A stretch of DNA of 43,915 bases from a virus, in the IMG/VR virus record IMGVR_UViG_3300032229_000649, positions 1 through 43,915 of that record; one strand, given 5' to 3'. This document shows, piece after piece, positions 2,367-36,304 of the stretch. Numbering within the stretch: position 1 is the stretch's first letter; each line of letters begins with the position of its first letter. A model generated the notes under the pieces. The model made no database searches, was not told the DNA's origin, and was given only the letters and a program-made list of their open reading frames with translations. A program made the translations under genes and the position numbers.

Positions 2367-5300
2367 TCAGGGATTGATAACACCTGTATCTCCTTTCACT
2401 TCTCCTATGGTTAATGCTAGTAGATTAGCTTCTTTTTGGAAACCCTCTTGTCGTAGCAATGTCAGCAATGTCTGGTGCCATGCTTGGTTATGGCCTCCTC
2501 CAGTATTGCTCTTCCATCCACCTTCCATAAGGTGAGCTATTTCGTGAAGCAAAGCTACCTTAGAAATTCCTCTTTTTCTAACCAAAACTACAGGGAACTC
2601 GACACCCTTTAAAGGATCTCCATCTGCGAAAGCTTCGCTATTTGCAAGACCTATACCAGCTTCAATTCCTCCACCATAAGGAGTTCCATCGGAACCTTCC
2701 CATGAAGGGTCATCTCCTAGCATCTTATCGGCTACAGATCCTCCAGCCAAATAGAATAGCTTGTTGCCATAACCATATTTTTTCAATATATCGGCAATAT
2801 ATTTTCCAATTTCATTTCTATCTTTAATTAGCTCTTGTCCTTCTAGAATTCTTGAGGCAAAAATTCCGTGTGCAGACTCTAAATTATCGTTATCTTTTCC
2901 TTCTTCTGAAGTACGGTCATAGTTAATGTCATCCCATAAATCGTATTCTTCATCATTGACAGTAAGTTTTGTAGGTTGTTTAGAGGCATCTTTATTCTTT
3001 GGAGTATTTTTAGCAATCTCTTCTCCAGTTTGACCTTGTTCTCCAACATTAGGTTCTGGAGTTGCTTCTGTAGTTTCAGGTGTTTGATCAGCGATCTGCT
3101 CGCCAGTTTGACCTTCACTGCCTACGCCTTCGCCAGCTTCTGGTGGACCAAAAGGATCGCTTTGAGCAATAAAGTCTGGAACTTCATCGCTAACAAGTTC
3201 TTTGTCAAAAACAAAACTTGGGTGCATCTCTGGTGGAACGTAACCTTCACTTACTGGCTCCCCTGCTCTATCACCAGTTGTCTCTACAAATTTTGGCTCT
3301 TTGTTGTTTTTAATTTGCTTAGGGAACTTTCCTTTTTCTGCATCTTCAACCATTTCGCTAGCTTTACCTCTAACAACGCGAACTGGGACAAAAGGAATGT
3401 TTTCAGCAATAGCTGCTTGTAATCTGTGATTTCCTTCGCCAACAAAAGCCATACCTGTTTCATCATCGTAGATAACCATGATTGGGTCGTTGAACGGCTT
3501 TCCATTGAAATCTCTTATTGCAAATCCTTTACCTTCACGAAGAGACTTTCTGTAAGACTCTATAGCTTCCTCGTTTCCAGCAACATTGCCAGCCATATCT
3601 TTTAGCGCATCGGTAGAAACAAAACCTACAGTGCTTCTGGATCCAACTAATCCGCCAGATCCACCATCTTTATAGTCTTGTAATCCTGGGAAAGAAGATC
3701 CAACTTGATCAGGTGTATCTCCTTTTTTAATTCCAAGCATCCAGTTAACTGCATCTTGAGCTTGCTTTGCAGCAACAATAATCATTCCCGGGTCATCTTG
3801 AAGAGGCTTCAACCAACCTTGTGCGTATGAAGCTGTATTACCCCAATCGATTTCTACACCAAACTCTGCAGCAATGAGTGCAACTGTAATTTCTGCAATA
3901 AGTTCTTCTTCGCCACGGCTTGCTTTATGGTTTCCATAGTTATCTTGAAGATCTTTGCGCTTTCCTTCTTTACCTAAGCGTGAGATATGTCCTGTGCTAT
4001 GACCTAATTCATGGAAAAGGGTTTCAATGAAACCTACACTAGTGTCAAACTGCTCTCTTAGTGGTAGATAAATTTTATCTACTGAAGGCAAGTAATAAGC
4101 CTTATCTTGAGGCTTGTAGATAATCTCTGGATGATCTGCATATGACTCTAATATTTGCTTTTCAATGTCTGAGACTGGAACTGGATCTTTCTTTACCAAA
4201 GGTGGAAGGTTTAGTTTCTCGAACTGAGAAACGTTAAATACTGGAACTTCTGTAAAGTAGATGTATCCTTCTTTTTTAATGCTTCCATCTGGCTGCTTTA
4301 CTTCTTTAGTTACAACGTTAGGCTTTAGAATCTTTGTGCCTGTCTCGCCCTTACGAACAAAGCCTCCTAGTGATTTACCTTGATTGAAGGTCAAGAATCT
4401 AGGGTCTGTCCAATCATTTAGATGCATTGCTGCCCAGAGAGCAAGTGTGTTAGTTCCTTGATAACTCTTGTTTGTTTTTCCGTTTGTTGGAAGGAAGCCT
4501 CCGCCAGACCATCCCTTTGTCCAAGGAACAACGCCCTTTTCAATAAGTTCGATTAGTCGGTTAGCAACTTCCAAAGTCTTCTGATCTGTAATCTTTCTAG
4601 CCTTGACAACCTCGTTGCCAACCTCTTCTGGAGTTACAGGTTCTGGATCTGGTGTAACGGTCATTCCGCTAAGTTTTTCAACGTCAGTTAGCTGAGGCTT
4701 TTCATCATCTTCAGATGTGACATCGTAAATCCACTTTAGGTTTTCTCCAATGTCAATAGCCTTCTTTGCGCGAGTAGCGGCAACGTATGAGATTCTAAGT
4801 TCTTCTGGGTCAGGAAGTTGCATCTCTCCTTCATCATTGATCTCAGGTTGCTTGAAATCATCAAAAAGCTTTACGCGATCCCATTCTTTACCCTTTGACT
4901 TATGTGCTGTAATAATTTCAGCGTCAATAGGGATTCTTGGAGGATAGTTTTGTACCCATCGTCTAACATCGTTAATTAAATTAAGGATATCTTCTTCTTG
5001 CTCTTTTCCAAAAGCCTTTTCAAAAGAGAATTTTTCTGGGTTATATGTAAAGTCCTTCAAAAGAAAATCTTTATATGACTTTGAGTTTTGGAAAGATATT
5101 ACTCCGTCTTTAATTGTGTATGTAAGCTTTCCTTTAAACCCACTATTAGTTCTACCAGTACCGAGCTCTCCAGTAATTCCGTCTGCGAGTGCTTCCTTGC
5201 CTACAGGAACGTATGCATCTGTTCTAAACCCTGTACCACGGATAGGAGTAATACTGTTGAGCTTATCTACCAACTCTTTTATAGTCATCTTTCTATCTCT

Positions 5301-8300
5301 TAGAAGACGAACCATGTACATCGCTCCACCTACTGATTTGCCATCCTGAACTGCCTTTAGGACTTCGTTCCAGTTTTGGAAACCTGCTAAATCTTCATGG
5401 AGTTTTGGCTTCTTGTATGCAGGTGTTCCCTTGTTAGCTGCAATCAACCATGCTGCAGACTTTGCATATGACATAGCCTTGTAGTAGGTCTCTAAGTTTA
5501 ATCCTGGATTCTTTCCCTTAGCTAATAGGTCAAAGACACTGTCGATAACTCCACCGTTTGATCTAGCAATAATTGCAGTAGGGTCTTCCATATTCTCTAC
5601 AATTTCGCCGTCGTCTTCTCCAGGCTTTCCTACTACCTTATTTTTAGAGTTAAGTAGAGTTAGGAATCTGTTTCCTATTCCTGCAACCTTTGCACCGAAA
5701 CGGAATGTCTGAGTTAGGTATAGCTCTTTTGCATTCTTTACGTTATTAAGCTCATCTACAGCTCCACGGAATGCATAGATAGCTTGATTACTATCTCCAA
5801 CATATACCTTTTGAATTCCTTCTTGGTCAGCCAAAAGTTTTACAATTACTGGGTTCATATCCTGAGCTTCATCAAAGAAGAACATATCGTTCTTTCTATC
5901 TTTAAATTGCTTAGTGCTAGTTGATCCAGAATTTAAACCATCTACAAATTGAGGTTTAGTTAGCGCCCAAGCTTTAAGCATATGTGAGTAATCAATTCTT
6001 GATAGCTTCTTTGAGGAAGGATCCCAACCTTCTTCAGTACTTACATCTTTCCACATTTTCTTTGCATACTCGACAAGAATTGGTGGAACTGTGTCGTAGA
6101 ATGGAGTTTTCTTAGTGAAATGCTTTTCAGTTAAGACATCATCTGCTGAAATTGCAAATCTATCTACTGCTTCTCTTATCTCTTGAACAAGATCGTTTCT
6201 TCCTAGAGTTGTTTCTGTGCCTCTGATAGATACAGTTACTGGCTCGTACTGGTAGTACTCAAATAGGTTTACATAGTCAGTGTAATCGATAAGACTTCTC
6301 TCATTTATCTTAAAGACACTGCTAAGTTTATTTCTTTCCTTGTGATTATCTGGAAGCATTGAGTAGACAATGTTGTCCATAGTTCTAGAATCTACGTTCT
6401 GAGGCATTCTGCCTTGAGCTTCTTCAGCAGTTTCTTTGTTAAATACAATGTAGAGAAGTTTCTTAGCTGGATTTTCTGCCAAAATTCTCTTTGCAGCAAG
6501 AACTAGAGTAGAAGTCTTTCCAGTACCAGCCAAAGCTTGAACTATGACATCTCCACCAGTCATAATTGCATCAACAATCTTCTTCTGCTCTTCTGTTGGA
6601 GGGAACTTAGAGATGTTGTTATAGTCAAATGAGCTCTCTGATTCACCAAGAAGAGTTCCGTTGCCAAAGTTATCGGCGTCTGTTCCTTCAGTATCTTCTG
6701 GTTCATTGATAACAATCATTGCGTTAAGATTTGTTACTGGATCTATGAAGTCTTGGAGAACTCTCTCAAGCTCTAATGAGAATGAACGCTTGTCATTCTC
6801 GGTACGCCAGATAATTGATCCGTCTGGTTTAATAGTTGCAACAGGTTGATTTCTAAGGAATAGATCCTTAGTTGCTCTAAATACAATTAAGTCATCTGCT
6901 GAATCTAAGCTTAAATCTACGCCTTTATCTTTAAGCTCTTTCTCAGTTGGTTTGTCTATTGCAAAAGTTACATCGAATAGATTTCCAGTTTTAAGACTTG
7001 GAAGAGAGCTTTCAGTTGTTCCTCGTGCAGGAAGATTCTCTTTTACCTTTGAAACTACAGAAGTAGATGTCTTTACAAAGTTAGTTTCCTTTACCTTGTC
7101 ATCTCGTTCTTTTTCTGCAGACTTAAACTTCTCTGCAAGCTCATCAGGATTTACTGCGCCTTCTGCAGGTGTAGTTCCTTGAATGTCCTTGATCTTATTT
7201 GCAATATCTTTAACAGTTGTCTCACCCTTAGGCTTAACTACTGGTACAAATTCAGGTCGGAAAACAATTGAAAGATTCTTAGCCGCTACAGGCTCTCTTT
7301 CATTAGTATCGTCATATCTAACCTTTACATAATTCTTATACTTTCCACCCTGATATGAATCAAGAAGAACGCTTACAGTTCCAGTTCTCTTAGTCTTGGC
7401 GTGGATAACCTTGTCGCCAGGCTTAATTAAAGTAACTCCGTCAGAGGAGATATGGAAACCTGTTTCTCCTTCTGCGTTTTCAGGCTTAGCAGTTACTGCC
7501 TCTTTAATGGTTTCATCGACATTAAGGCCCTTGACAGCTTCTTCAATAGATGCATCTGGCTTAGAGGTTGTGATCGCATCAATTGCATCGTTAACAACTG
7601 TTGCTACCTGCTCAGGAGTTACATCCTCACCCTTAACAGGCTGTATTTCAGGGATAACAACTGGATCAACGTCTGGAATAGCTTCGATAGTTTCTGTCTC
7701 TATCTGGGCATTGGTCTTGTCAGCATTTTCTTTTCTGCGATAAATTCCGCCTTCTAGTTTTTTATTTAAGAACCAGCCAGTTCCACCGTCTTCTCTTGGG
7801 GACTGTCTTTCTGTAAAAATTTGACCAGTATTGAGATTTGCCCTTAAAACTTTTACAAAATTAGATGGATCTACTTCGTCGTCTTCTAATTTAACAACTT
7901 CAAGCAAATCTCCATCAAAACCAAAAATAAAGTCGCTAGGCTTTATATCTTTGACTCTTGCATTAGGAATAAAGTCTGTGTTTTCTGGATCTTTAACCCA
8001 TTCTTCATTAATTTTATCTCCGTATAAAGGTGAGACATATTCCTTTGGAGAGTCTGAAGATTCTTCGCCTTCAACAATAGTTACAGGTTCTTCTACTACA
8101 GAATTTACTTCATCTATAGCTGCATCAACATTTTCACTAGTTACAGGTTTTCCAGCAAGTCCTTCAGAAACAATCTTGTCAGCTTCTCTCTTAGAAGCTT
8201 TCTTCTTTTCTTCAGCTAGAGAAAGTACCCACTTCTTAAATCCTTCTGCGTAAGCTGCGCTTCCTCCAGTAGGAATGTTGCCAGCTTTGAGATTTTCAAG

Positions 8301-11300
8301 TAGCTTTCTTAGAACTTGATCGGTTACTCCAACATCGAATAATGCATTGTGGAAATCAGAAGAGTCAGTAGTAACTCCTAGACGCTCTGCTAGTTGATTA
8401 AGAGCATTAGAAGGTGCTTTCCATGAACCTACACCTGAGCTATTTATAGTCCATGTCCAAGCGTTTCCTAGAGCGGAGAAAGCTTCATCTCCTTCTGCAG
8501 GATTCTCAGGGAATGTAACTGTCCCACGTTCAATTTTTTGCAGTGCTTGAGCAATTGGTAGCGTGTCAATTGATCCCTTTAGCTCAAAATCAATTCCAAC
8601 TTTCTGAGCCCAGCGCTGTAATACGTTTAAATCAAATCCAATATTTTGTCCAACAAGAATTGGATCTGCGCCAAAGAAGTCAACAAGTTTTTGTAGCTGA
8701 TCCTTGATGCTTGGCTGTGTAGCTAGCCATTCATCTGTTATTGGGTTGCCTTCAGCATCTCTCATTCTATTTGCACGAAGAACCTTGTTTCCTTCACTAT
8801 CTGTTTCATAATAGTAATCGCCCAAAGGCTTTTCAGGATTAATGTAGATGTTAAGCTCTTCTACCTTTTCACCACCAACATATCTAACCGCAGCTGCTTG
8901 GATAGGCGCATCTGGGTTTAATACGTTCTGTACATCGTTTCCTAAAGTTTCAAAGTCAAAAACTACATATCCATTTTCTCTAGCATCTAGAGCTGCTTGG
9001 ATGTTAGCTCCATCTCCGAGGTCCAAAAGCAACTCGGCTGAACCGTAGAATGCAGGTAGTTTTGGCTTGGATACTTTCGGTGCAACCTCGATAGATCCTT
9101 CAGCGTTAAAGGTGTATCCCTTATCTGCTTCTGCAATTTTTTCTTGACGTTCTTTTTCAAGCTGAGAATAATTAGGAAGAGACTTATCTGGTCTATCTAG
9201 AGGTTCTTTATCTCCTGATGTTGGAAGATTTACTTCTCCACGAATAATGTCGATTGGGGTAGCTTCACGCCATTCCTTAACCTGTGTTTGGTGTCCAACA
9301 TAGTGTCCTTCAAGAGATGTAACTCCATCTTTAGTTCCAAGAACCTTGGTAACTGTGAAGAACTCTTTAGCCCCATTTTTGTTCTTTCTAAATGCAATAT
9401 CTCCAACTTGAACTTCAGATGCTGGTACGTTAGATACATAAGATGCTTTTTCAACTGGCTTAACAGGAGTATTTTCAGTTTCATTGTTAACTGCTTCTAC
9501 TTCTGGAGGAGTCCAAAGACCCTTACGGCGTTCAGCTTCTTTCTTATATTCTGCTAAAGCTGCTTCGTATCTTTCTATATCAGCAGGGTTCTTTAATCCC
9601 CACTTCTTTCCTTCGGTACCGTTTGGTCGCTTGAATGTTCCAATTATTTGTAGTTTTCCAGTAGGACTAAAAGACTTCATTTCTGGCTTGCTCAGTACTG
9701 GTAAGTCTCCCTTTTCTGGAGGTGTAACTCCACGGTATACCTGTACTTCTGTGTCGTCTGCCCAAAGCTTAGTACTTTGTTCTACAGAGTTTGGATAGTA
9801 TCCAGTAAGTCTAGTCGCTGGAACTGTTTCCATATCTCTATCTTTAGTAAGACCTGTTTCAATACTTACAATTGTAAAATAATCATCTTTGAAAACATCG
9901 CCAGGCTTTAAGTTAGGTGCAGCAACCAAAGCGATACTTGGTTGTGGTCCTTGAGGCTTTTCTGTTTCTTTAACCTCTGCAGTAGGAGCTTCTTCTGGCT
10001 TTTCAGCTGGCTTTGAACCAAGAACAATGTCATCAATTATCTTTGTAACTGCATCTAGCTCATCTTTGAGAGCTTTCTTCTGTGCTGGAGTTGTTTCTTC
10101 AGAAAGATCTGCCTTATCAATTTTTCTTTGAATCTTACGACGCTTGTCAACAAGAGCCTTAAGAATTTCTTTATCTCTCTCAGTAAGAGGAGTTGGCTTT
10201 TCTTCTGCAGCTGGTGCAGGAGGTGTATCTGGCTTTTCTTCTGCTTCTGCAGCTGGTGTTTCTACGACAGGTGCTGCTTCTGGTTTTTCAGATGGCTTAC
10301 TCTCTGCTTCAGCTCCAGTGCTTTCTGGCTTATCTGGAAGGTTCTTAATGAACTCCCAACCAAGCTCAGCATTAACTAAACGACTAATGTCTTCCATTTC
10401 TTCTGTAGTCAAAGAATCTAACTGGAAAAGCATCTGCTTTACTGCTGAACGTCGAGGGAAATCTAAAGTAAATGCGTCTTGACCGAACTCTGAATCAACA
10501 ATCTTAATCATCATTTGTTGACGATGACGCTTTTCTTTCTTAAGAGCTTTTCTTTCTGCTCTTGTCAGTTTTTTGCGTTGCTGTACTTGCTTGATTAAAG
10601 CATCAAGATTAGGGTTCTCATCTTCTTTAACGCTATCAATTAAAGCTTCATCAACTAAATCTGAGTCATCATCATCTGCTACTTCTTCTCCGCCAAGATC
10701 TTCAGGGGCAGTAAATTTGTAATCGTCCCACCACTCCCCTCCGTACTGCTTTCTAGGAATAGGTAGCTCATCTACAATTTCACCAGTATTAATATTTACC
10801 CAAGAACCGTCTTCTTGCTTAATCCAAGTAGATGATCTGCCATTAAGATCTTTACTGGTAGCTCTAGTTCCAGCAGGTAGTTCATCAAACTCTTTTGGAG
10901 ACTTCTGTCCTCTTTTTACAGCTTCTGCTTCTTCGAGAAGACGATTATTTTCTTCTATTTCTTTCATTAAATCTTCTGGCTCTGCCCCAGGTAATTCTTT
11001 TTGTATCTTTGCAAGTACGTCACCTAGCTCGGCACGCTCTTGAAGAAGAACTTTAATTTTATCGTCTATGTTTCCTTCAGATACAGAAGTTAGAAATTCC
11101 TCTGGAGGATCAGTTTGAATTACTGTTTGTTGACTTGTAGGGGTTTCGTCACTAGGTATGCCTAGAGGATCACGAGTATATAATTCTTGGTCAAATTCAG
11201 TACCATCTTCTTTTTTCCATCCCTCCATGGTTTTCCATGTACCAGTTTGTGGATAATATGGACTACCGTCTGTATATTCAACTCTCCAGATAGATGGTTT

Positions 11301-14300
11301 ATTAGGGGTATCAAATTTTCTTTCTGATACACGAGTTACTATTCTCCAGCCAACGCCAGGAATATAAACTTCGTCTCCCGGTTTGAGATCTTGTGGACGC
11401 TTTTTAGTGTACTTAAGTTTTTCATCTACAACTACTGCTTCTTCTTCTTCTTTTGGAGTTTCCTCTACTTCTGGTGTTTCAGGGGACCCCTTAAGCTCTT
11501 CAAGAGCTCTTTTAATTCTTTCAATTCTTCTTGCCATCTTGTCTTTTACATCAGGCTCTACATCTTCTCGCTTGATTAGTCTTTCAACCATATCAAGCTC
11601 ATCTTCTAATTCTGCAATATCTCTTTCTTCTTTAGTAAGAGCTGGAACTTCTGGAGTTGCTTCAGGTGTTGGAGCTTCTGGAGCTTCTGGAGTAGGAGTT
11701 GGTGCTGGGGCATCAATGTCAATTGGGTCTTGAGCAGGTGAGTTTGGAGTTGCAGCACGAGGTTGTAGATCGATACCAAAACGATCACGAAGTTCACGAG
11801 CAAACGCTTTAAATTCTTCATCAGTTTGTAAAGCAGATTCTGAATTAACTGGAAGAGTTTTTCCATCTCTTTCAACAGTTCCAGTCCACTCAAAACCATT
11901 CTCGTCTAAGAAGTCTGCAATTTCTTTATCTTTAAAAGCTCCGCCAGCACCAGCACGAAGAAGAGTGCGATTACCTGAACGCTTGTATGTAACTGCCTTT
12001 TTAGGCTTGACTTCTTCTTCTTTTGTATCTGGCTCTACTTCTGGCTCTTCAGAAACAGGAGGCTTTATTCTTGCCTTTGCTTTTCCAGCCTTCTTATTAA
12101 TCTTTTCAATAATTGCATCTGTATCTTTACCCTTAAGCTGGAGAGCATCTCTAAGAGCTTCTGCAGGAACGGGAGAGTTTACAAGTTCTCCGTTAGGGTC
12201 TTCGGTTAGCATTTCTCCAAAACCTGGTCCATGCTCACCAGTGCCATTAATAGCGTTGCTTAGTTCGTCAGTTAAGTCTTTAACTTTATTTGCAGACAAA
12301 TCTAAAGCTGTAGTTGGAGGTACATCTCCTTGAAGATCTTTTGGAGTGTAGTTTTCTTTAGGGTCAACTGGATTTGGATCTAACTTATAAAGACCTTCTG
12401 GAGTATCTATGTCTGCATTCTTTGGCAAGAATGGTCGGTAGTCGCCATCCTCTTTAAAGGATGCTAACTCTTCTTCTGAAAGACCTTCAAGTAGAGGAGG
12501 GACATATGTATCTTCAGATACATCTTCAACATCTTCTAATCCATCTTTAATATCTTCAGTAGGTTCTGGGGTAGTAGCCTTTGGTTCTGGCTTTTCAATT
12601 TCATCTTCAATAATTTTGTCAGAAGGTGAAGGATCTATCTCGCCATCTTCAATTGGAGCTTCTTCTACAACAGGTTCTTTTTCTCCTCTAGATTCTAGGA
12701 GAGCCTTTTCATTGTTATTGTTTCCAGCAATCTTGTCGTAAGCCTGTGCAAGAGCCATTTCAGCATCTCCACCTTGCTCACGAATTGCTGCAGCGATAGC
12801 TTCTGCTGGAACATCTCGTTCACGGCCATCTGTAAAGTTAATTGGGGCGTAGCCAGTTGCTTTTTCAGTATCACTAACAGGTTCTACTGCTGTAAGAAGA
12901 GCATCTTCTAGCTCCTCTGGTACTTGATCGTTTGCAATTGTTACAGGATCATCAAACTCAAATTCTGGTGTGTACTCTTCGTTAGGATTAAGTTCGTAAG
13001 CTCTCTCTGGAACTTCATAAGGAAACGCAGAGACTTCTTTTTTCTTTTTATCAGCCTTCTTCTTTGTTGGCTTAAAGATATCGTCTGCTTGATCAAGTAG
13101 AGGAACATTGTCATCTGCAGTCTGTTGCTCTGGGCGTGTGTATTCACGACCCTCATCTTCATCAAGGAAAGGTTCGTCACGGAGGATTTCATTGTTTACA
13201 TCTTTCCAAGACTGAGCAAATGCAAGAGGTGTATTTTTGCCACGACGATAAACCGCAAGAACTGGCTCATCAGGGTTCCAAAACTGCTTACCTGAGTCTG
13301 GATCAATTTCGCCCTTCTTAAGAAGCTTTGGTTCTGGCTTATCTAACTCTGCAGCTCTCTTCTGACCTTCACCGATTGCTGTCTGTGCATCTTTAGGGTT
13401 ATTAAATTTAACGATGTCATACTTGTCATCTGTGTATCGAACAGCACCACTTTTTGTTTCTTCATCTTTGCGATAAATACTTGGTGCATCGGAGATAACA
13501 ATGCTGCTTTCTGGAAGTACCTGTGCTCCATTAGGAACTTCTGCTTCTACTGGAGAGTAGCCATCTTCTGAGTCCTTGCTTTTAATAAAAGCTTCAAGAC
13601 CTTCACCAAGCTTTGTAGGTACTGTTGCAACTTTACCCTTGCCCATTTCAATATCAACAAGGTTAGGATCAAACATGTTCTGGTTTAGTAGTTCACCTGA
13701 AAGACTTCTTGTAGAACCATCGTTTCTAGCAACATAAACACGGAAACCATCGGTAGCTCTTTTAGCTAAAGATGCTCCCATATTAATCCAACGCTCAAAT
13801 CGGTCTGAAAGCTGTACAGCTTCACGAGCACGGCGAGCTGCGGCAGAGTTCTTACCAGCGTAAGGGTTTGCGGCAGCTAGTAGAACTTCAACAGGCACTT
13901 GTCCTTGAGGCATATTCTCTAGACGAATCATTGAGTACTTATGCTCTGGTGAATCGATAGGAGAGAACATTGCAGATGCCAAGAGGCCCTTTACTGTCTC
14001 ATCCTTAATGCGTGGATCATCAAGTACCCAACGCATCTGAGCTTCTGCAAGTGCAGATGCTGTCATTGTGTTAAAGCGAGTTGATCTTGGGTGAGATACT
14101 GGAAGTAAATCTGTATTAAATGCTTCTAGGCCAACAATTTTGTTGTACTTGGCTAGAGAAATGTAGTTAGAGAGCTCTGTAAGTGCTTGATGCTTGCGAA
14201 TAGAGAAAGGAAGTCCTCTAGTTTTTTGTAGAGAACGAGCAAGAACCTTGTATGCAGACCTACGATTTACTCTACGGCTTGTTGTAGAAAATTCGTTGGC

Positions 14301-14396
14301 TTTTTCAAGTAAAACATTTGCTTCTTGACGAATAAAACGTGCCTGTTCACGGCTGCTATATGCTCTGTAAGAGCTTACAACAATTTTATTCTCCAT
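2367..14396 (-). CDS. Giant polyvalent protein: exonuclease, SF1 helicase, ArdC-like zincin, ParB-like and second zincin domains
   Basis: A 4009-residue protein. Residues 1-110 end in DLLPVSHPRST, a motif shared with the preceding gene product. Up to about 1780 it is mostly acidic, Pro/Glu-rich linker with small repeats (VPAEA units near 530 and 744). KPGD-type beta segments lie near 1006, 1498, 1666, 2154 and 2328. A DnaQ-type 3'-5' exonuclease spans about 1790-2035 (DFET near 1813, a VGQNIGFD block, HNALFD near 2016). An SF1 helicase spans about 2595-3225: AGTGKT near 2625, DEAQD near 2842, GDSNQAIYAFRG near 2865, TAHKSKGKEWD near 3165, AATRA near 3208. An ArdC-like module (VPWTKGW near 3293, zincin HELGH near 3461) is followed by a ParB/Srx-like GEGNHR near 3653 and a C-terminal zincin (HEIAH near 3951). 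This matches phage polyvalent proteins thought to be injected with DNA to counter host defences. Its start overlaps the upstream gene by 11 bases, with SD AAAGGGAG. Confidence 0.95.
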   Translation of the reverse strand: MENKIVVSSYRAYSSREQARFIRQEANVLLEKANEFSTTSRRVNRRSAYKVLARSLQKTRGLPFSIRKHQALTELSNYISLAKYNKIVGLEAFNTDLLPVSHPRSTRFNTMTASALAEAQMRWVLDDPRIKDETVKGLLASAMFSPIDSPEHKYSMIRLENMPQGQVPVEVLLAAANPYAGKNSAAARRAREAVQLSDRFERWINMGASLAKRATDGFRVYVARNDGSTRSLSGELLNQNMFDPNLVDIEMGKGKVATVPTKLGEGLEAFIKSKDSEDGYSPVEAEVPNGAQVLPESSIVISDAPSIYRKDEETKSGAVRYTDDKYDIVKFNNPKDAQTAIGEGQKRAAELDKPEPKLLKKGEIDPDSGKQFWNPDEPVLAVYRRGKNTPLAFAQSWKDVNNEILRDEPFLDEDEGREYTRPEQQTADDNVPLLDQADDIFKPTKKKADKKKKEVSAFPYEVPERAYELNPNEEYTPEFEFDDPVTIANDQVPEELEDALLTAVEPVSDTEKATGYAPINFTDGRERDVPAEAIAAAIREQGGDAEMALAQAYDKIAGNNNNEKALLESRGEKEPVVEEAPIEDGEIDPSPSDKIIEDEIEKPEPKATTPEPTEDIKDGLEDVEDVSEDTYVPPLLEGLSEEELASFKEDGDYRPFLPKNADIDTPEGLYKLDPNPVDPKENYTPKDLQGDVPPTTALDLSANKVKDLTDELSNAINGTGEHGPGFGEMLTEDPNGELVNSPVPAEALRDALQLKGKDTDAIIEKINKKAGKAKARIKPPVSEEPEVEPDTKEEEVKPKKAVTYKRSGNRTLLRAGAGGAFKDKEIADFLDENGFEWTGTVERDGKTLPVNSESALQTDEEFKAFARELRDRFGIDLQPRAATPNSPAQDPIDIDAPAPTPTPEAPEAPTPEATPEVPALTKEERDIAELEDELDMVERLIKREDVEPDVKDKMARRIERIKRALEELKGSPETPEVEETPKEEEEAVVVDEKLKYTKKRPQDLKPGDEVYIPGVGWRIVTRVSERKFDTPNKPSIWRVEYTDGSPYYPQTGTWKTMEGWKKEDGTEFDQELYTRDPLGIPSDETPTSQQTVIQTDPPEEFLTSVSEGNIDDKIKVLLQERAELGDVLAKIQKELPGAEPEDLMKEIEENNRLLEEAEAVKRGQKSPKEFDELPAGTRATSKDLNGRSSTWIKQEDGSWVNINTGEIVDELPIPRKQYGGEWWDDYKFTAPEDLGGEEVADDDDSDLVDEALIDSVKEDENPNLDALIKQVQQRKKLTRAERKALKKEKRHRQQMMIKIVDSEFGQDAFTLDFPRRSAVKQMLFQLDSLTTEEMEDISRLVNAELGWEFIKNLPDKPESTGAEAESKPSEKPEAAPVVETPAAEAEEKPDTPPAPAAEEKPTPLTERDKEILKALVDKRRKIQRKIDKADLSEETTPAQKKALKDELDAVTKIIDDIVLGSKPAEKPEEAPTAEVKETEKPQGPQPSIALVAAPNLKPGDVFKDDYFTIVSIETGLTKDRDMETVPATRLTGYYPNSVEQSTKLWADDTEVQVYRGVTPPEKGDLPVLSKPEMKSFSPTGKLQIIGTFKRPNGTEGKKWGLKNPADIERYEAALAEYKKEAERRKGLWTPPEVEAVNNETENTPVKPVEKASYVSNVPASEVQVGDIAFRKNKNGAKEFFTVTKVLGTKDGVTSLEGHYVGHQTQVKEWREATPIDIIRGEVNLPTSGDKEPLDRPDKSLPNYSQLEKERQEKIAEADKGYTFNAEGSIEVAPKVSKPKLPAFYGSAELLLDLGDGANIQAALDARENGYVVFDFETLGNDVQNVLNPDAPIQAAAVRYVGGEKVEELNIYINPEKPLGDYYYETDSEGNKVLRANRMRDAEGNPITDEWLATQPSIKDQLQKLVDFFGADPILVGQNIGFDLNVLQRWAQKVGIDFELKGSIDTLPIAQALQKIERGTVTFPENPAEGDEAFSALGNAWTWTINSSGVGSWKAPSNALNQLAERLGVTTDSSDFHNALFDVGVTDQVLRKLLENLKAGNIPTGGSAAYAEGFKKWVLSLAEEKKKASKREADKIVSEGLAGKPVTSENVDAAIDEVNSVVEEPVTIVEGEESSDSPKEYVSPLYGDKINEEWVKDPENTDFIPNARVKDIKPSDFIFGFDGDLLEVVKLEDDEVDPSNFVKVLRANLNTGQIFTERQSPREDGGTGWFLNKKLEGGIYRRKENADKTNAQIETETIEAIPDVDPVVIPEIQPVKGEDVTPEQVATVVNDAIDAITTSKPDASIEEAVKGLNVDETIKEAVTAKPENAEGETGFHISSDGVTLIKPGDKVIHAKTKRTGTVSVLLDSYQGGKYKNYVKVRYDDTNEREPVAAKNLSIVFRPEFVPVVKPKGETTVKDIANKIKDIQGTTPAEGAVNPDELAEKFKSAEKERDDKVKETNFVKTSTSVVSKVKENLPARGTTESSLPSLKTGNLFDVTFAIDKPTEKELKDKGVDLSLDSADDLIVFRATKDLFLRNQPVATIKPDGSIIWRTENDKRSFSLELERVLQDFIDPVTNLNAMIVINEPEDTEGTDADNFGNGTLLGESESSFDYNNISKFPPTEEQKKIVDAIMTGGDVIVQALAGTGKTSTLVLAAKRILAENPAKKLLYIVFNKETAEEAQGRMPQNVDSRTMDNIVYSMLPDNHKERNKLSSVFKINERSLIDYTDYVNLFEYYQYEPVTVSIRGTETTLGRNDLVQEIREAVDRFAISADDVLTEKHFTKKTPFYDTVPPILVEYAKKMWKDVSTEEGWDPSSKKLSRIDYSHMLKAWALTKPQFVDGLNSGSTSTKQFKDRKNDMFFFDEAQDMNPVIVKLLADQEGIQKVYVGDSNQAIYAFRGAVDELNNVKNAKELYLTQTFRFGAKVAGIGNRFLTLLNSKNKVVGKPGEDDGEIVENMEDPTAIIARSNGGVIDSVFDLLAKGKNPGLNLETYYKAMSYAKSAAWLIAANKGTPAYKKPKLHEDLAGFQNWNEVLKAVQDGKSVGGAMYMVRLLRDRKMTIKELVDKLNSITPIRGTGFRTDAYVPVGKEALADGITGELGTGRTNSGFKGKLTYTIKDGVISFQNSKSYKDFLLKDFTYNPEKFSFEKAFGKEQEEDILNLINDVRRWVQNYPPRIPIDAEIITAHKSKGKEWDRVKLFDDFKQPEINDEGEMQLPDPEELRISYVAATRAKKAIDIGENLKWIYDVTSEDDEKPQLTDVEKLSGMTVTPDPEPVTPEEVGNEVVKARKITDQKTLEVANRLIELIEKGVVPWTKGWSGGGFLPTNGKTNKSYQGTNTLALWAAMHLNDWTDPRFLTFNQGKSLGGFVRKGETGTKILKPNVVTKEVKQPDGSIKKEGYIYFTEVPVFNVSQFEKLNLPPLVKKDPVPVSDIEKQILESYADHPEIIYKPQDKAYYLPSVDKIYLPLREQFDTSVGFIETLFHELGHSTGHISRLGKEGKRKDLQDNYGNHKASRGEEELIAEITVALIAAEFGVEIDWGNTASYAQGWLKPLQDDPGMIIVAAKQAQDAVNWMLGIKKGDTPDQVGSSFPGLQDYKDGGSGGLVGSRSTVGFVSTDALKDMAGNVAGNEEAIESYRKSLREGKGFAIRDFNGKPFNDPIMVIYDDETGMAFVGEGNHRLQAAIAENIPFVPVRVVRGKASEMVEDAEKGKFPKQIKNNKEPKFVETTGDRAGEPVSEGYVPPEMHPSFVFDKELVSDEVPDFIAQSDPFGPPEAGEGVGSEGQTGEQIADQTPETTEATPEPNVGEQGQTGEEIAKNTPKNKDASKQPTKLTVNDEEYDLWDDINYDRTSEEGKDNDNLESAHGIFASRILEGQELIKDRNEIGKYIADILKKYGYGNKLFYLAGGSVADKMLGDDPSWEGSDGTPYGGGIEAGIGLANSEAFADGDPLKGVEFPVVLVRKRGISKVALLHEIAHLMEGGWKSNTGGGHNQAWHQTLLTLLRQEGFQKEANLLALTIGEVKGDTGVINP

Positions 14397-15378
14397 CTTC
14401 TTCTCCCTTTATTGGAAGAAGGTCTCCATCTAAGCTGTCATAACCAAGAGATGCTAGAAGAGATGCTCGCTTGAATGGATTCTCTCCATTACGAACTGCA
14501 CGAAGCCAAGATGCACGAACTGCATGCTCTGCTTCGTATCCAAAGCCTGAATACTCTGCCATAGCAAGGATTGCTTCTTCTGGAGATGAGTAATCTTCTT
14601 CAGGAAGAAGGTCAATATTTAATTCTTGTTCGTAACGCCACTCGTTAGCAAGCTTTGCTAGCTCTTGTGGTGATTGGATTTCGTTTCCGAGCTTCTCACC
14701 TTCGAGAACTCCAACATCAACGACGCCATCTGGGATAACCGCAAAACGACACTTACCTTCGTCCTCGACTTCGAGTTCGATGATTCTGCACGAGCCATTA
14801 CCCATGTATAAAACACAGTTAGAGCATTTGACTCCGATACCTCTGACATCATTTTCGGCTGGAGGTGTGTATCCTGCCCAGATTCCTGTGGCATCTTCAT
14901 TGAATCTTCCATATTTGTCTGCAATCTCGACTAGCGCTTCTGCTAGATCGCTCTCTTCAGGAACCAAACCTGCTGAAGCTGCAATGGAGTTTGATTTCTT
15001 AGTTGAACGTGGATGTCCAGAAGGAAGTAAGTCATTATCTGTCTTGTATGCAGAGTTTGATGGCTTTCCAGACTTCAACAACTTAAGAAATGCATTCACT
15101 CGACCCATTGCCCATTGGTTGCGAGTCATTCCTGGACGATGTGAGACGCTGTAAGCACCTGCACCTCTGCGATAGACAGCTTTTAACATTCCGACGGTTG
15201 CACGACGACCTTTACCTGCTTTTTCGTTGTGCTGTTCGACTTTATTCTTTAAAGACTTCTCTACTGCTGCAGAAAACTTAACTTTACGAGTTCCTGACGC
15301 AGATCCTTTAGCATTTTTCTTAGAACCCTTAACTTGATCCTTCTTAGGAGCAGGAGTTTGAGAAATAGTGCGTGACAT
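14386..15378 (-). CDS. Head-region protein with RGAGAYS...DLLPxGHPRST block and Cys cluster
   Basis: This encodes 330 residues with a very basic N-terminus. Residues about 60-125 hold a conserved phage block: RRGAGAYSVSHRPGM, NQWAMGRVNAFL, and DNDLLPSGHPRSTKK. I know this block from structural-region proteins of actinophages and marine phages, but no biochemical role is known to me. Near residue 190 is a C-x2-C...C...C group (VKCSNC, GSC, GKC) followed by FAVIPDG, probably metal or Fe-S binding. The short DLLP string recurs twice more (NIDLLPEED, GDLLPIKG). The ATG overlaps the portal stop (TAATG), and the 3' end overlaps the giant gene. A capsid-assembly or packaged-protein role is inferred from position. 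Confidence 0.88.
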   Translation of the reverse strand: MSRTISQTPAPKKDQVKGSKKNAKGSASGTRKVKFSAAVEKSLKNKVEQHNEKAGKGRRATVGMLKAVYRRGAGAYSVSHRPGMTRNQWAMGRVNAFLKLLKSGKPSNSAYKTDNDLLPSGHPRSTKKSNSIAASAGLVPEESDLAEALVEIADKYGRFNEDATGIWAGYTPPAENDVRGIGVKCSNCVLYMGNGSCRIIELEVEDEGKCRFAVIPDGVVDVGVLEGEKLGNEIQSPQELAKLANEWRYEQELNIDLLPEEDYSSPEEAILAMAEYSGFGYEAEHAVRASWLRAVRNGENPFKRASLLASLGYDSLDGDLLPIKGEEDGE

Positions 15379-17063
15379 TACTGCTCTTGCCCTTCTGTTG
15401 GGGTCTCGGCTGTAATACCTGCTTCTTCTGCACCTTCACTTGCAGCATCTAATGCTTGCTGAAGCTCTGGTGGGATAGGAGCAACGGATGATTGCTGTTG
15501 CTGTGAACGGACTGTGTTAATAACCTCTGGTGCAATTGCTGACAGCATTGCTTCTGTAAATTCTGGTGTAAGTACGCCACGTTCTTGTAGAAGTCTAATT
15601 GAAAGTTCTTTTGGAGTAGGTGCATCTGCATCTGAGAAGCCATGAGCACGACGCCATGTGTTTGCAGAGACCGCCATGCGATCAAATCCTGCGTCTGCAT
15701 CTGTTGCACGGTCATTACGAGTTGCAATTGCTGATGGGTCATACCAAACAACAATCTTGTTAACTTGTGTTTCTTCAAAACCATTTGCAATAAGGTATGG
15801 ACGAAGGTAAACAACTGTTAGAGCATCTGCAATGAGCAACATAAGTGGCTCAATGTGTGCCTTATATAGTGATTCATCAATCTGCATTGCATTTGAGTAC
15901 TTAACATTTGCTAAACCTGTAACAACATCCTTTGGAACATCTAATCCTTGAAGGATGCGCTCTAGTACACGATCAGAACGCTCAGCTAGTGCTGGGTCGA
16001 ATGAACGCTCAAACTTAAACTGCTTAATCTTGTCGCCAAGTTCTGCAGGACCACGAATGATAAGAGGAACAACTGCTGATGCGGACTCTTCGTCACGAAT
16101 CGGAGTTGTCATCGCATCCATTAACTGCTCTTCGAATTCATCTTCCGCTTCTTCGGCAGTAAACCCTGCGCCGATACCATCCTCAGAATCGTAGGGGAAG
16201 TCGCCGTCACCTTGCGACGCGACGGAAAGACCATCTGGTAAATAAAGCGCACCAGCATTGAGACGAGAACGAGCAGTCGCACGGAATGTCCTATTCAGTA
16301 GAAGGAGTTCTGCACAAAGATCAAGCAAACCACGAAGTGATGAATCTGCTTCATCTGAAAAACGAGGATGTGAACGCCACATGCGTCCAACAAATGCATT
16401 CTTACCTAGCTTTGAATTCTTATCTATTCCACCTTGTGTTGTAGTGGATTGTTCACGACGACCAATAACATTGAAACCGCCACGAGGATCTGTTGTTACT
16501 TCATCAACGGAACGAATGTCCCAAGACTCTGGCAAGTTATATGCTGGTCGTGCTGGCATCTGAACTAAATAACATTCTCCAGCTACTGCAAGGTTAAGTG
16601 CAGCATCTCTTAATAAACCTGCTTGTCCACCATATGCAGAATTTAATCGTGCAAGTGCACGTTCTGCCGCAGCTCCAAGACGATCATCAACTAGTTCTGA
16701 TTGACGAACAGAGATTGGAGTCTCTGATGGATCATCAACAACAGCTGCATAAATTCTGATACGAGATACAACTGACGCAACTAAATTGAATGCGTATTTG
16801 ATTTCACCAATAGCGTCGTAGTATTCCCAAGCTTCTGCTTGCCATGCGCTAGATCCAGCAGAGCGACGAATTCTAAATTGCTCAAACTCACCCTTGTCAT
16901 TAACTTTAATTTGAGCTGCTGCAGCTGTAAGAGTTCTAGGAGTTGAGTATGTTGCTGCCTGAGCTGTATTTGTAAAAACATTAGTAAATGTTGAATTCTG
17001 AGGCTTTTTATTTTTTGACTGTGGAGACGGAGGTGTTACTTCGTCATTGGTAAATATACCCAC
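15378..17063 (-). CDS. Portal protein
   Basis: This encodes 561 residues, a normal portal length, starting at GTG with a good Shine-Dalgarno (AAGGAG, 5-base gap). The body has portal-type features: an N-terminal wing with EYYDAIGEIKYAFNLVASVV, a central region with GRMWRSHPRFSDEADS, an acidic loop near 300-320, and the C-terminal segment ERILQGLDVPKDVVTGLANV followed by KYSNAMQIDESLYKAHIEP. In actinophage portals that last segment forms the long helix and clip region. The tail is Gln/Glu-rich and probably flexible. The portal ring is the gateway for DNA packaging. The terminase large subunit that would dock on it is not in this window. Confidence 0.93.
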   Translation of the reverse strand: MGIFTNDEVTPPSPQSKNKKPQNSTFTNVFTNTAQAATYSTPRTLTAAAAQIKVNDKGEFEQFRIRRSAGSSAWQAEAWEYYDAIGEIKYAFNLVASVVSRIRIYAAVVDDPSETPISVRQSELVDDRLGAAAERALARLNSAYGGQAGLLRDAALNLAVAGECYLVQMPARPAYNLPESWDIRSVDEVTTDPRGGFNVIGRREQSTTTQGGIDKNSKLGKNAFVGRMWRSHPRFSDEADSSLRGLLDLCAELLLLNRTFRATARSRLNAGALYLPDGLSVASQGDGDFPYDSEDGIGAGFTAEEAEDEFEEQLMDAMTTPIRDEESASAVVPLIIRGPAELGDKIKQFKFERSFDPALAERSDRVLERILQGLDVPKDVVTGLANVKYSNAMQIDESLYKAHIEPLMLLIADALTVVYLRPYLIANGFEETQVNKIVVWYDPSAIATRNDRATDADAGFDRMAVSANTWRRAHGFSDADAPTPKELSIRLLQERGVLTPEFTEAMLSAIAPEVINTVRSQQQQSSVAPIPPELQQALDAASEGAEEAGITAETPTEGQEQ

Positions 17064-33277: not shown

Positions 33278-35059
33278 TCACGCCACGAACTTTTGCCCTG
33301 CCGTTGATAAAACCTTCTCGGCGTTCTTGCCGATAATTTGAGCAGACAAACTTGGGTCGGTTATGTTCTCAACGACCTGTGCGTTAGCACCAGCGCAAAT
33401 ATGTTTAGCAGTTGCGCCGTTGTCGCCAATCGGTAGCCATAGAACTGCTACGCCGTTCTTTGAGCAACGAGCAACCCACGCCTTTGCGCTTTCCATTTCA
33501 TCACTTGTGTAGTGTCCGTCAGATACAACGACCAGTAATCTTGCGCCTTCACCATTGAGTAAGTTGAGTGCGCCGTCCAAAGCACGGAACGCTCTATCAA
33601 ACTTTTCAGTTCCGTCAGGGGCAGAATAGACATTTACTTCCTTTAGTCGTTGCCCTGCCTTTAGTGTTGGGAAAACATCTGAACCATAATAAACCATAGC
33701 GCAACGACCCTGAACTCGGCGAACTGCCTCACTCATAATCCAAGCAGTAGAAGCCATTGGGTTCATAGCAGAACTCATTGACCCTGAAATATCTACCATT
33801 ACTCCAACTGATAATTCAGGTTCGTCTGTGTGCTTACGAACTTTCTTTGAGAAAGCCTTTGGTTGAGTAAAGATACCTTTTTGTTCTAAAGCCTTTGCCT
33901 GAATAATTTTGCGAGTGTTTAGTTTTCCGGGGGGAACAATACTTCCAATCTCAATCGCACCACGCTCACGATACTTTGCTCTTTCCAAAGCCTTAGCAAT
34001 TTTTACTGCGCTATTGCGTTCTTGTCCATTAGGGCTTCGCTTCTCAACTAACTGTGAGCGAGTGCTTGCTTGCCCCGGACCTGAACTCTTTGAGAATACT
34101 TGACGAGCAATTTCCTCATTTTTCTTTTGCTCTTTAGAAGTATTGGCTTTAGCAGTTGCGCTCTCTTTCATATCCTCTGAACGCTTTTGGTCTTGTAGTT
34201 CATTGGCATTAGAGATAGAAACGCTTTCGCTCATCTCACCAAGCATTTCGCTCATCATTTCAGCAAAGGCTTCTTGTTCCTCTTTAGTTGGTTGTTCCCC
34301 TGCTTCCTCTGCCTTTTCACGAACCAATCTCGCCCACTCAATCGCTAGTGGATAGCAAGCAGAAATATCAGTATGAATTGCGTGGTCTTGGAATTGGTAA
34401 ATAATTTCCTTTAGTTTCATAACTAAATCAGAACCTAAAATCCCATTGACCTTATCAAGTAAATCAAAGGCTTGGAGTTCATCAAGCGACCCTGCGATTA
34501 TTCTTGCGTGGCATAAACCAACTAAAGAACTAGCAGAACGAATTGTTGATTGCTCTGAAAACACTTCTTTCGCTTCGTCAATAATCAAACCCATAGCACT
34601 TGCTCGTAGAAAAACTTTTGCGTCAGGGTGAGTGTTGATACCCCACGCTTCTATGCGACCTTCCTCTAGCAACATCAAAGCCTCAAACTCATCTTGCTTT
34701 AGTGTCTTACCTGCTAGTGGAATATCCCACGCTGAAAACTTTGCGTGATATGCCTCGTGGCGAATTGCGCCAACTGCCTTAGCAAACTCGTATTGGTTCT
34801 TTCGCTTAGTCAAATCGTCAATCATACTTGGAGTTGTTATTTCCCCAAAGGCTTCTTTTGTATTTACTTCTATTTCTGCGAGAGCAGGTAGGAAGCAAGC
34901 AGGTGCGCCTTTTCCTGCCTCTGTTCCTAGCAAAGCAACTAAGTCTGTTCTATCAGACCAAGTATTTACTAATTGAGTAATTTCATAACCAACTCCTAGC
35001 CAATCGCTAGGTGTCTTTATCTTGGAACGAGTTAGTTCCTGTGGCTTGATATGTGCCAT
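33278..35059 (-). CDS. VWA-domain protein with N-terminal HExxH (CoxE / DUF2201-like)
   Basis: A 593-residue protein. Near residue 100 is IRHEAYHAKF, an HExxH zinc motif, with a downstream LLEEGRIEAW that could give the third ligand; this is the layout of DUF2201-type putative metallopeptidases. Residues 240-350 form a charged linker (EAFAEMMSEMLGEMSESVS). The C-terminal VWA domain starts near 415: MVDISGSMSS is the MIDAS DxSxS, and VVVSDGHYTSDE holds the later Thr and Asp. MoxR ATPases and VWA proteins typically act as a pair in protein remodelling or metal-cofactor insertion. The MoxR gene is the preceding one. The start follows AAAAGGAC. Confidence 0.88.
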   Translation of the reverse strand: MAHIKPQELTRSKIKTPSDWLGVGYEITQLVNTWSDRTDLVALLGTEAGKGAPACFLPALAEIEVNTKEAFGEITTPSMIDDLTKRKNQYEFAKAVGAIRHEAYHAKFSAWDIPLAGKTLKQDEFEALMLLEEGRIEAWGINTHPDAKVFLRASAMGLIIDEAKEVFSEQSTIRSASSLVGLCHARIIAGSLDELQAFDLLDKVNGILGSDLVMKLKEIIYQFQDHAIHTDISACYPLAIEWARLVREKAEEAGEQPTKEEQEAFAEMMSEMLGEMSESVSISNANELQDQKRSEDMKESATAKANTSKEQKKNEEIARQVFSKSSGPGQASTRSQLVEKRSPNGQERNSAVKIAKALERAKYRERGAIEIGSIVPPGKLNTRKIIQAKALEQKGIFTQPKAFSKKVRKHTDEPELSVGVMVDISGSMSSAMNPMASTAWIMSEAVRRVQGRCAMVYYGSDVFPTLKAGQRLKEVNVYSAPDGTEKFDRAFRALDGALNLLNGEGARLLVVVSDGHYTSDEMESAKAWVARCSKNGVAVLWLPIGDNGATAKHICAGANAQVVENITDPSLSAQIIGKNAEKVLSTAGQKFVA

Positions 35060-35245: not shown

Positions 35246-36304
35246 CTAGATTTTCGCTGGCTTATGCTCTGCGCCAAAGGCACGAGCAATAACATCAACA
35301 ACAACATCTCTATCTAATTCAGGTGCGCTCGCAATTAGATTAGAGATAGCGAACTCTGTGCCAAAGATTTCAGAAGTATCTCTGAACCCTAGCAACTCAC
35401 GCATTTGTGGCGACCAAGATATTTCAGCACTATCGCCTTGTGTGCGCTTGTGTAGATTTTGAGCAACGCTAACCATTGTGGTTGGAACACCTAACTTCTT
35501 TGCCAAAGCCCAATCAGTAGTTAGTTCTGCTTGGATTTGGAAACGAGATAGCAACGCTTCACTCATACGAACTCCCGGAGCATTTGGGTTAGTAGCAGAA
35601 ATTACATAAAAGTTTTCATGGACTTTTATAGTTCCCCTTTCAGGGTTCATAGGAATTGTAATTTCCTTTCGTCCGTCCATTACTGAATAAGCAACTGCTA
35701 GTGCTTTAGGGTCAATCAAACCAATCTCGTCAATAAAGAAAGGCAGACCAAACTCAACTGCTCTAATAAATCCTGCGTCAATCCACTCAAACTTTCCACT
35801 TGGGGTCTGAATAAAAGAACCATAGAAATCATTAGTATCAGTATCGCCATTACCAATCAAGGTAATAACTTCCTCATCAGAAAAACTTGCTTCTACTAGA
35901 GCAGTTTTTCCTGTTCCCGGAACTCCATAGAAAAATGCGAATTGTGGAGAACCAACGCCTTCGGAAAAGAACTTCTTAGTTGCTTCTCTTGCTCTGCGTA
36001 AAACTGCTACATCAGTATGAACTCCCCATTGGCGAGTGAAATACTTTTGTCCATTAGGACGAACATAGAACTCATCAGCACTTAGGTTTCCCACCTCAAC
36101 GCCACTAGGGGTCATAGCACCAACTCGCTCTCTTGCTTTTCTCTTATCGCCACTTGCTCGCTCAACGCAACGACCACTAGGTAATACTTTTGCGCTAAGT
36201 CGTAGAGAAGTGTCCTCGTGAGTGCTTTGGGTCAAGCAATCAGAAACGATAGTCCAGAAATCGCCTTTTAGTTCTGCCAACTTATCTTTGATAATTGTAT
36301 CCAT
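35246..36304 (-). CDS. MoxR / CbbQ-type AAA+ ATPase
   Basis: A 352-residue AAA+ protein: Walker A GVPGTGKT at 127-134, Walker B FFIDEIG at 189-195, sensor 1 in VISATNPNAPG near 240, and an Arg-finger candidate in LLSRF near 254. The N-terminal 110 residues are a small extension. The short inter-motif distances and the ATNPN sensor are typical of MoxR/CbbQ/NorQ ATPases, which work with a VWA partner to remodel target proteins. The next gene (33278-35059) is that partner. The start follows AGGGGG by nine bases, inside a translationally coupled operon with the 152-residue gene upstream. Confidence 0.9.
   Translation of the reverse strand: MDTIIKDKLAELKGDFWTIVSDCLTQSTHEDTSLRLSAKVLPSGRCVERASGDKRKARERVGAMTPSGVEVGNLSADEFYVRPNGQKYFTRQWGVHTDVAVLRRAREATKKFFSEGVGSPQFAFFYGVPGTGKTALVEASFSDEEVITLIGNGDTDTNDFYGSFIQTPSGKFEWIDAGFIRAVEFGLPFFIDEIGLIDPKALAVAYSVMDGRKEITIPMNPERGTIKVHENFYVISATNPNAPGVRMSEALLSRFQIQAELTTDWALAKKLGVPTTMVSVAQNLHKRTQGDSAEISWSPQMRELLGFRDTSEIFGTEFAISNLIASAPELDRDVVVDVIARAFGAEHKPAKI

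Follow-up and report, generated by a model that had tools for sequence, protein, structure and literature searches.

What is a protein of 4009 residues, carrying an exonuclease, a helicase, an antirestriction module and a second zincin-like motif, doing among the head genes of a virus? The question is raised by one open reading frame (ORF) of IMG/VR record IMGVR_UViG_3300032229_000649, a metagenome virus contig whose 43,915 bases are the stretch that we analysed (the window). This giant ORF (positions 2367–14396) lies, like all features of the giant and of the neighbouring head genes located below, on the minus strand. It is a genuine gene: as an original prediction made from the letters alone had stated, it forms a single frame, which starts with an ATG behind a purine-rich tract, overlaps the upstream gene by 11 nt and has domain matches in both Pfam and PHROGs. 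The reading that we favour, with reasonable though far from full confidence, is that of a virion-packaged, injected polyvalent effector, in which a leader derived from head genes stays constant and the cargo behind it is exchangeable. That leader was absent from the domain list of the original prediction.

A constant leader ahead of variable cargo

The leader comprises residues 1–310 of the giant. It also served as bait for our collection (a leader search of IMG/VR gave 23 loci, and a small alignment then yielded the best 80 of 105 relatives), so its presence in all 33 giant clusters, which represent 53 ORFs of at least 900 amino acids (aa) each, is by selection. The cargo is scored with incomplete ORFs counted as lacking a domain, and the following counts are therefore lower bounds: a repeat module occurs in one or more copies in 31 of the 33 clusters, the exonuclease in 16, a PGD-type repeat in 15, the helicase in 10, the ArdC N-terminal domain (ArdC-N), the MPTase zincin and the C-terminal domain in five each, and a GEGNHR-containing domain in three. 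The window giant has two copies of the repeat module, one at residues 457–585 (12642–13028), without a significant Pfam match, and one at residues 660–801 (11994–12419); its two PGD-type repeats are at residues 1486–1575 (9672–9941) and 1652–1740 (9177–9443). Pfam scans of two pools, of 13 and 17 chains with one protein divided between them, found ADP-ribosyltransferase, NUDIX, WYL, KTSC and sigma-70 region 4 domains, among others. A kinase-like cargo domain, seen in 16 of 33 clusters with a local profile, was not relied on: it had no PDB match at E 0.1, and its name came from one PI3/PI4-kinase and one CotH Pfam match among the 17 chains, together with conserved residues. A local 'art' profile, whose matches overlap the kinase-like ones, was not used.

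The same front section is found in Actinomycetia phage DSL-LC01, which is described as metagenome-assembled with a predicted actinobacterial host (PMC10611076). Its giant, an ORF of 3289 aa, occupies the same place, between the portal and head-maturation genes. Against it, the window giant is 31% identical over residues 15–336 (E 1e-26) and also matches in a short module around 460–558 (4e-9); the other matches listed are at chance level. An assignment of the DSL-LC01 cargo as ADP-ribosyltransferase plus kinase was dropped, there being no PHROG match at 0.001 and, in Pfam, only an ATP-cone match below the cut-off (0.0034).

Close relatives differ from one another along the chain. Compared with the relative L093, each block of the window giant within residues 2401–3400 is 98–100% identical and residues 1001–1400 are only 25–57% identical and gap-rich; L093 is also without residues 3601–3700, which belong to the GEGNHR domain. 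Those residues are 100% identical to the window in L095 and L096, where the helicase is about 80% identical. Because synonymous divergence from L093 jumps along the chain (leader 0.50, helicase 0.05, ArdC 0.035, MPTase 0.69, C-terminal domain 0.07), segments appear to have been exchanged between close relatives. At the level of sequence, then, the leader stays, and the cargo behind it differs by lineage and is swapped between close relatives.

The fusion of exonuclease and helicase, which the original prediction had treated as a one-off, recurs: nine of the ten helicase-bearing clusters also carry the exonuclease, always with the exonuclease first. Five of these nine are the window and its closer relatives L094–L097, and four are distant. 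This recurrence also bears on the idea that the giant is an assembly chimera or annotation artefact, which its source, a metagenome virus contig, might invite. The same architecture stands on the contigs of L094–L097, likewise in L093 apart from the GEGNHR domain, and chains at about 30% identity again have the exonuclease ahead of the helicase; we give an artefact next to no credence.

Frames of quite different lengths were seen in the collection. On contig G034:C1 (about 2400–25422, minus strand; pieces L100 and L101) a leader frame of 7,671 codons has a helicase match, and its relative G033 (L102) matches the exonuclease and helicase as well as ADP-ribosyltransferase (1.4e-30) and NUDIX (1.7e-22) families. 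The leader ORFs of L016, L144 and L012 end at 749–996 aa, in places where relatives continue for thousands of residues, and may be either sequencing frameshifts or real short forms.

A leader built from head-module domains

The giant had been described as lying beside the portal. It does belong to the same module, but a 330-aa gene with DUF5824 (PF19141; 14386–15378) separates it from the portal protein gene (15378–17063; phrog_776, 1.2e-106). On its other side, a 235-aa ORF without a family at E ≤0.01 (1420–2127) precedes the N-terminal part of a head-protease polyprotein (2–1486), which is cut by the window end. The portal family phrog_776 was found in 41 of 43 records, a count that includes near-identical records, and all 41 have the giant behind the portal, on its strand and 0.67–5.3 kb from the portal match. 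A converse test, baited with the portal rather than the leader, gave a similar picture. It took the closest 80 out of 425 portal relatives; 72 of them have the leader downstream, including all 50 with at least 2.5 kb of downstream sequence, which represent 19 distinct portals at 95% identity. The eight loci without a leader all have at most 730 nt downstream.

Half 1 of the leader is a helical domain with the motif DLLPxxHPxST (residues 15–130; 14007–14354). It is also present in the gene directly upstream in 55 of the 58 leader clusters with at least 1.5 kb of upstream sequence, and profile-profile comparison with hhalign relates it to part of those upstream genes (probability 97.1, E 5.7e-11), all 14 of which, among those scanned, carry DUF5824 at E ≤0.001. 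The relation to the DUF5824 genes comes through this profile comparison, half 1 itself having no Pfam match, nor the leader alone any at E ≤5. Over whole records, PF19141 matches nine of 11, once each; eight of the matches are in the gene between portal and giant, and the ninth (G033:C1 26267-26518, minus strand) lies just beyond the giant's frame, not upstream of it. Half 1 of G033 resembles its upstream gene weakly (4e-7), and gene order may differ in this subgroup. Very long giant frames hold half 1 at their start only.

Half 2 (about residues 179–274; 13575–13862) combines a variant of the motif QxRDxxGRFAxMGG with a small beta barrel. Its profile aligns with that of the downstream head polyprotein (probability 96.9, E 1.3e-10), in which the window's homologue spans residues 104–319. 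In 15 whole records we found 33 half 2 matches, which, sorted by frame length and position, fall into 16 giants, 14 downstream head polyproteins and three extra genes between portal and giant. This result is partly by construction, because some profile rows come from the searched records; the absence of matches elsewhere in the 15 records is not. The profiles of the two halves gave no match among 4353 shuffled frames. A further 23 half 1 or half 2 matches (20 of them listed) lie in loci without a giant start above threshold, and those inspected were cut loci.

The extra genes belong to L068, L071 and L082, the clusters without half 1 upstream. Each instead has a gene of 1.1–1.5 thousand aa in which half 2 stands close to the N terminus and is followed by an ADP-ribosyltransferase match; head families match these genes too. 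By PHROG name the genes of L068 and L071 are Alt-like, and that of L082 is an ADP-ribosyltransferase (2.6e-9) but not Alt-like; in L068 the identity of this region comes from Pfam and PHROGs, with no PDB sequence match at 0.01. A joining of the head domains is seen in the Roseobacter phage CRP-831, where a 974-aa ORF after the portal (L187:4473-7397) combines phrog_2859 (4e-30), a DUF5824-like region, prohead protease S78 and the major capsid protein; the DUF5824-like region is backed by a tblastn match of the window's upstream gene (3e-14). The capsid ORFs of the Roseobacter phages CRP-821, CRP-822 and CRP-823 bear this region as well, and host strains are given in all four records. Within the stretches and records searched, the leader thus consists, by profile comparison, of a helical domain like that of the DUF5824 genes and a barrel domain with the RDxxGRF motif, both otherwise found in head-module genes.

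A gene of DSL-LC01 (L002:18005-19405), annotated 'cytoplasmic protein', has the half 2 domain ahead of a DUF3626 match (7e-10), and its product is a candidate for another packaged protein.

An AlphaFold2 model of residues 1–810, computed with 31 alignment rows, is helical and for the most part confident as far as about residue 176 and has a mostly confident beta region after about residue 220. The stretch at about 171–220 is of lower confidence (block means 47–70) and includes the motif's conserved Q, DR and MG. A flexible joint that carries a conserved motif would be a fitting place for recognition or cleavage, and half 2 may provide such a site. Fold searches with the leader and repeat modules gave best E values of 0.067 in PDB and 0.025 in BFVD, none at 0.001; two BFVD rows, the top one (probability 1.00) and one named 'Prohead protease' (0.98), are no more than suggestive, because the aligned part is not displayed. 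Comparisons with VIA, in which the best Z was 5.2 for the helical part and, against Spindlin, about 4 for the barrel, were not used as evidence.

Downstream of the giant, L103 encodes a polyprotein of 1735 aa, in which matches to the head-maturation protease are joined by those to other head families; in DSL-LC01 the head functions follow the giant as separate genes, then the major head protein. A terminase is part of the DSL-LC01 gene context. Residues 1268–1409 of the L103 polyprotein (L103:270-5474, minus strand) match a ferritin-like domain (PF00210, 1.3e-14), also present in one of 14 DUF5824 genes (1.7e-19) and possibly a packaged DNA protector. The 160.7-kb contig G047:C1 holds two copies of giant plus head polyprotein (4659–15390 and 141136–151868), with equal spacing and unequal frame lengths; assembly may have merged two genomes here, or the duplication may be real.

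The virus is a tailed phage, and its host is probably an actinobacterium. WhiB, which is typical of actinobacteria and their phages, was found in 15 of 22 records, and among 14 control genomes Corynebacterium glutamicum alone scores. The leader was found in one of 50,697 phage records, that of DSL-LC01, and in none of the plasmid records; in genome contigs, a pattern-limited search gave 40 stretches that fit the leader patterns, none of them confirmed. Elsewhere in the window, an ATPase ORF (35246–36304; phrog_16448, 2e-48; phrog_249 'porphyrin biosynthesis', 8.7e-17), which we take to be MoxR/CobS-like, adjoins a 593-aa ORF without a PHROG match (33278–35059).

Enzymatic cargo of the giant

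Profile searches for an exonuclease and a helicase, which had been named beforehand as the refuting check, found both families. The DEDDh 3'-5' exonuclease domain of PolC/DnaQ type (residues 1791–2054; 8235–9026) matches RNase_T in Pfam (1.5e-11) and the polymerase exonuclease subunit in PHROGs (1.5e-21, residues 1806–2080). Its nearest solved sequence is a PolC-type exonuclease (6.2e-11 with the single sequence, 1.3e-26 with the family profile), and the residues D, E, D, H and D are invariant in all 12 exonucleases that were aligned from the 16 clusters, in agreement with the DnaQ assignment of the original prediction.

The same prediction had named a complete UvrD-like helicase. The domain at residues 2586–3235 (4692–6641) is indeed a superfamily 1 (SF1) helicase of the SF1A type (UvrD-helicase, 9.5e-19, and UvrD_C, 3.6e-7, in Pfam; DNA helicase, 3.2e-76, over residues 2587–3233 in PHROGs), and all nine aligned helicases have intact motifs I, II, III, V and VI, the tenth cluster, L085, being left out because a contig end cuts it. 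However, FBH1 is closer than UvrD: it is the nearest solved sequence (1.8e-29 with the single sequence, 1.2e-59 with the profile), and the profile matches PcrA and UvrD far more weakly, at about 1e-16. 'FBH1-like' refers to the helicase core only, as no F-box family is among the giant's 12 Pfam matches at E ≤1.

Both domains are under purifying selection, as judged from the ratio of nonsynonymous to synonymous substitution rates (dN/dS). Between the window and L093–L096 this ratio is 0.06–0.17 for the exonuclease, 0.04–0.11 for the helicase and 0.25–0.51 for the linker; against the more distant L097 it is 0.27 for the exonuclease, and the helicase is saturated. The linker has the highest value in four of five pairs, with exonuclease and helicase low. 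These data speak against the view that the giant acts as a scaffold or determines size while its cargo domains decay as passengers, a view to which the wide range of lengths and the short leader ORFs lend something: the active sites are intact in the 12 exonucleases and nine helicases aligned, distant relatives among them, and dN/dS in these domains (0.04–0.17) lies below that of the linker. We consider such a role very improbable.

Another alternative is a late-expressed cytoplasmic enzyme of DNA repair and recombination, merely placed in the head operon and never part of the virion. Among phage records, the helicase has its nearest stand-alone relatives in proteins annotated as DNA helicases of Arthrobacter phages (33% identity, 98% coverage), a point in favour of such an enzyme; a DNA-level search of phages with the helicase part gave no match. 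Such an enzyme would leave unexplained both the domains that the leader has in common with head genes and the pattern of constant leader and changing cargo, and we regard it as distinctly unlikely.

Behind the helicase, the ArdC-like module with HELGH is confirmed. ArdC-N (PF08401; residues 3276–3386; 4239–4571) and the MPTase-PolyVal zincin (PF18818; residues 3427–3545; 3762–4118) both exceed the Pfam cut-off (1.1e-24 and 1e-24), PHROGs adds an anti-restriction match (3e-59, residues 3273–3558), and solved ArdC structures 6i89 and 6sna match ArdC-N with its HExxH zincin at about 2e-33 (1.9e-33 over query residues 8–282). The second proposed zincin, with HEIAH, is the C-terminal domain (residues 3861–4009; 2370–2816). 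Every one of the 11 aligned domains keeps HExxH and the GGH that follows it, and at least 90% have the W of GGHxxxW. The fold is matched only weakly: Pfam gave nothing significant (best E 0.16, DUF5677), Foldseek a best E of 2.9 with none at 0.001, and VIA a best Z of 4.6 (1oz9; root-mean-square deviation 5.3, 109 residues aligned), many rows being zincins but all with Z below 5. We call this conserved domain zincin-like. The string GEGNHR is present as well, in a domain at residues 3581–3730 (3207–3656), but the label 'ParB-like' given to it finds no profile support: the region has no significant Pfam match (best E 0.2, UPF0261_C), and its model is poor, with predicted local distance difference test values of about 20–40.

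Proposed packaging and ejection, and known systems

Our sequence comparisons make the giant a polyvalent-type protein set apart by its constant, head-derived leader. It is quite probably a virion component: packaging is more than an analogy, because the two domains of the leader are otherwise found in head-module genes and the gene lies between portal and head protease. The leader would bring the chain into the prohead, where half 2 may be the part that the head scaffold or protease recognises; a targeting role for the leader is fairly likely. By analogy with known systems, the packaged chain would then probably be ejected through the portal into the host along with the DNA. There, ArdC-N would bind incoming single-stranded DNA and counter restriction. 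One or both zincins may cut the chain into working pieces, although we put forward such self-processing only tentatively. It is similarly a tentative suggestion that the two DNA enzymes cooperate at DNA ends or on single-stranded DNA, the FBH1-like helicase stripping recombinase and the 3'-5' exonuclease trimming DNA at the entering ends or host DNA; recombinase stripping is here a guess from the helicase family. The original prediction of a capsid-packaged multi-defence protein is supported in part: a polyvalent-type chain is confirmed and its packaging probable. 'Multi-defence' is unsupported as the role of all cargo, since exonuclease and helicase could serve recombination, takeover or end processing.

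The main competitor to packaging with ejection is a structural or assembly protein that stays inside the head or acts in packaging, its enzymes processing the packaged DNA. The constant place in the head module and the domains common to head-protease genes would suit it. The cargo, however, is very variable and includes ADP-ribosyltransferase, NUDIX and ArdC domains, for which we know of no assembly role. In addition, half 2 fronts ADP-ribosyltransferases, two of them Alt-like, and Alt of T4 is reported to be ejected (PMC9026906). We consider this alternative unlikely.

Several points weigh against an injected effector with a head-derived leader. The 33 clusters are uneven, several belonging to the window's own clade, and short closed leader ORFs exist (L016, 807 aa; L144, 996 aa). 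Half 1 was searched for in the fetched loci only, with PF19141 standing in for whole records, and two of the 11 records (G028 and G029) are without PF19141. The 25-row half 2 profile spans three gene classes, including rows from head genes and from searched records; a profile built from giants only reaches E 1e-3 downstream in four of 12 clusters with at least 3.5 kb of downstream sequence. The DUF5824 match of CRP-831, at 19.4 bits, is below the curated cut-off of 25, and the leader fold has no match at E 1e-3.

A bolder version of the packaging proposal, which we offer as a speculation, is that the leader, and its half 2 domain above all, is a genome-wide address tag of this lineage, whose bearers enter the prohead, are released by the maturation protease (its own polyprotein has the half 2 domain too) and are ejected if free. 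If so, the tag would list all injected proteins of uncultured actinobacterial phages from sequence, and one tagged protein would be an exonuclease-helicase that enters with the genome, remodelling ends or stripping host recombinase. Should the leader turn out to be the packaging signal, sequence would be enough to list injected effectors, and a folded packaging tag of very large proteins would be open to study. The pair of exonuclease and FBH1-like helicase would be an unusual injected activity, with a bearing on an old question: how the linear DNA of an entering phage withstands the host's recombination and end-processing enzymes or puts them to use. In the open-licence PMC literature, we found no title or abstract opening on this leader or on a phage DnaQ-SF1 helicase fusion, and the word DUF5824 in no paper.

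Among known systems, polyvalent proteins are the class to which the original prediction had assigned the giant, correctly in our view: they too combine many unrelated activities per chain, including ArdC-N and zincins, in a portal-terminase context and with predicted injection (PMC5512222). The giant has at least two disparate domains, hub domains and a portal gene next but one upstream. As far as the main text of that study goes, 'DnaQ' is absent and a UvrD-type helicase is named for a few actinomycete plasmid-type proteins. What defined polyvalent proteins was their mixture of domains, with no common address to be recognised, and they were reported not to follow a scheme in which the N-terminal delivery domain is fixed and the C-terminal toxin varies (PMC5512222). 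The giant, in contrast, has a constant leader: in this one lineage, a front made of head-assembly gene parts is constant, with cargo recombining behind it, also among close relatives.

DarB of phage P1, a methylase joined to a superfamily 2 helicase (PMC5512222), is another large antirestriction protein that includes a helicase; it is found in the head and has an N-terminal packaging signal. There, the first 30 residues are reported to suffice to send a reporter to the capsid, and BLAST found no consensus among Dar N termini (PMC9024508), whereas the giant's leader is about 300 residues, predicted to be folded and common to neighbouring head genes. MuF polymorphic toxins also fuse a phage packaging-module domain to exchangeable effectors (PMC5576092), but neither Pfam nor PHROGs shows MuF in the giant at E ≤1, and its cargo is several domains long. 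T4 Alt is a packaged, ejected enzyme, and T4 internal proteins are N-terminally addressed, by short propeptide signals, of which the first 10 residues are described as enough for IPIII (PMC9026906); the Alt-like genes of two of our relatives carry half 2. That a chain of the giant's size range can be ejected is indicated by the N4 virion RNA polymerase, a beads-on-a-string protein of about 3,500 residues (PMC12633501), although no RNA polymerase domain of the giant was matched in Pfam or PHROGs.

For the enzymatic pair, FBH1, UvrD and PcrA are reported to strip Rad51 or RecA off DNA (PMC4999840) and have an SF1 core like that of the giant, in which it is fused to an exonuclease, ArdC and a leader. 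DinG is alike in having a DnaQ-type exonuclease and a helicase in one chain, and an exonuclease-bearing DinG is among the profile matches (5.9e-12). WRN likewise joins a DnaQ-type exonuclease to a helicase. DinG-like helicases, however, are placed in superfamily 2 (PMC11981726), whereas the best helicase profile matches of the giant are SF1 enzymes.

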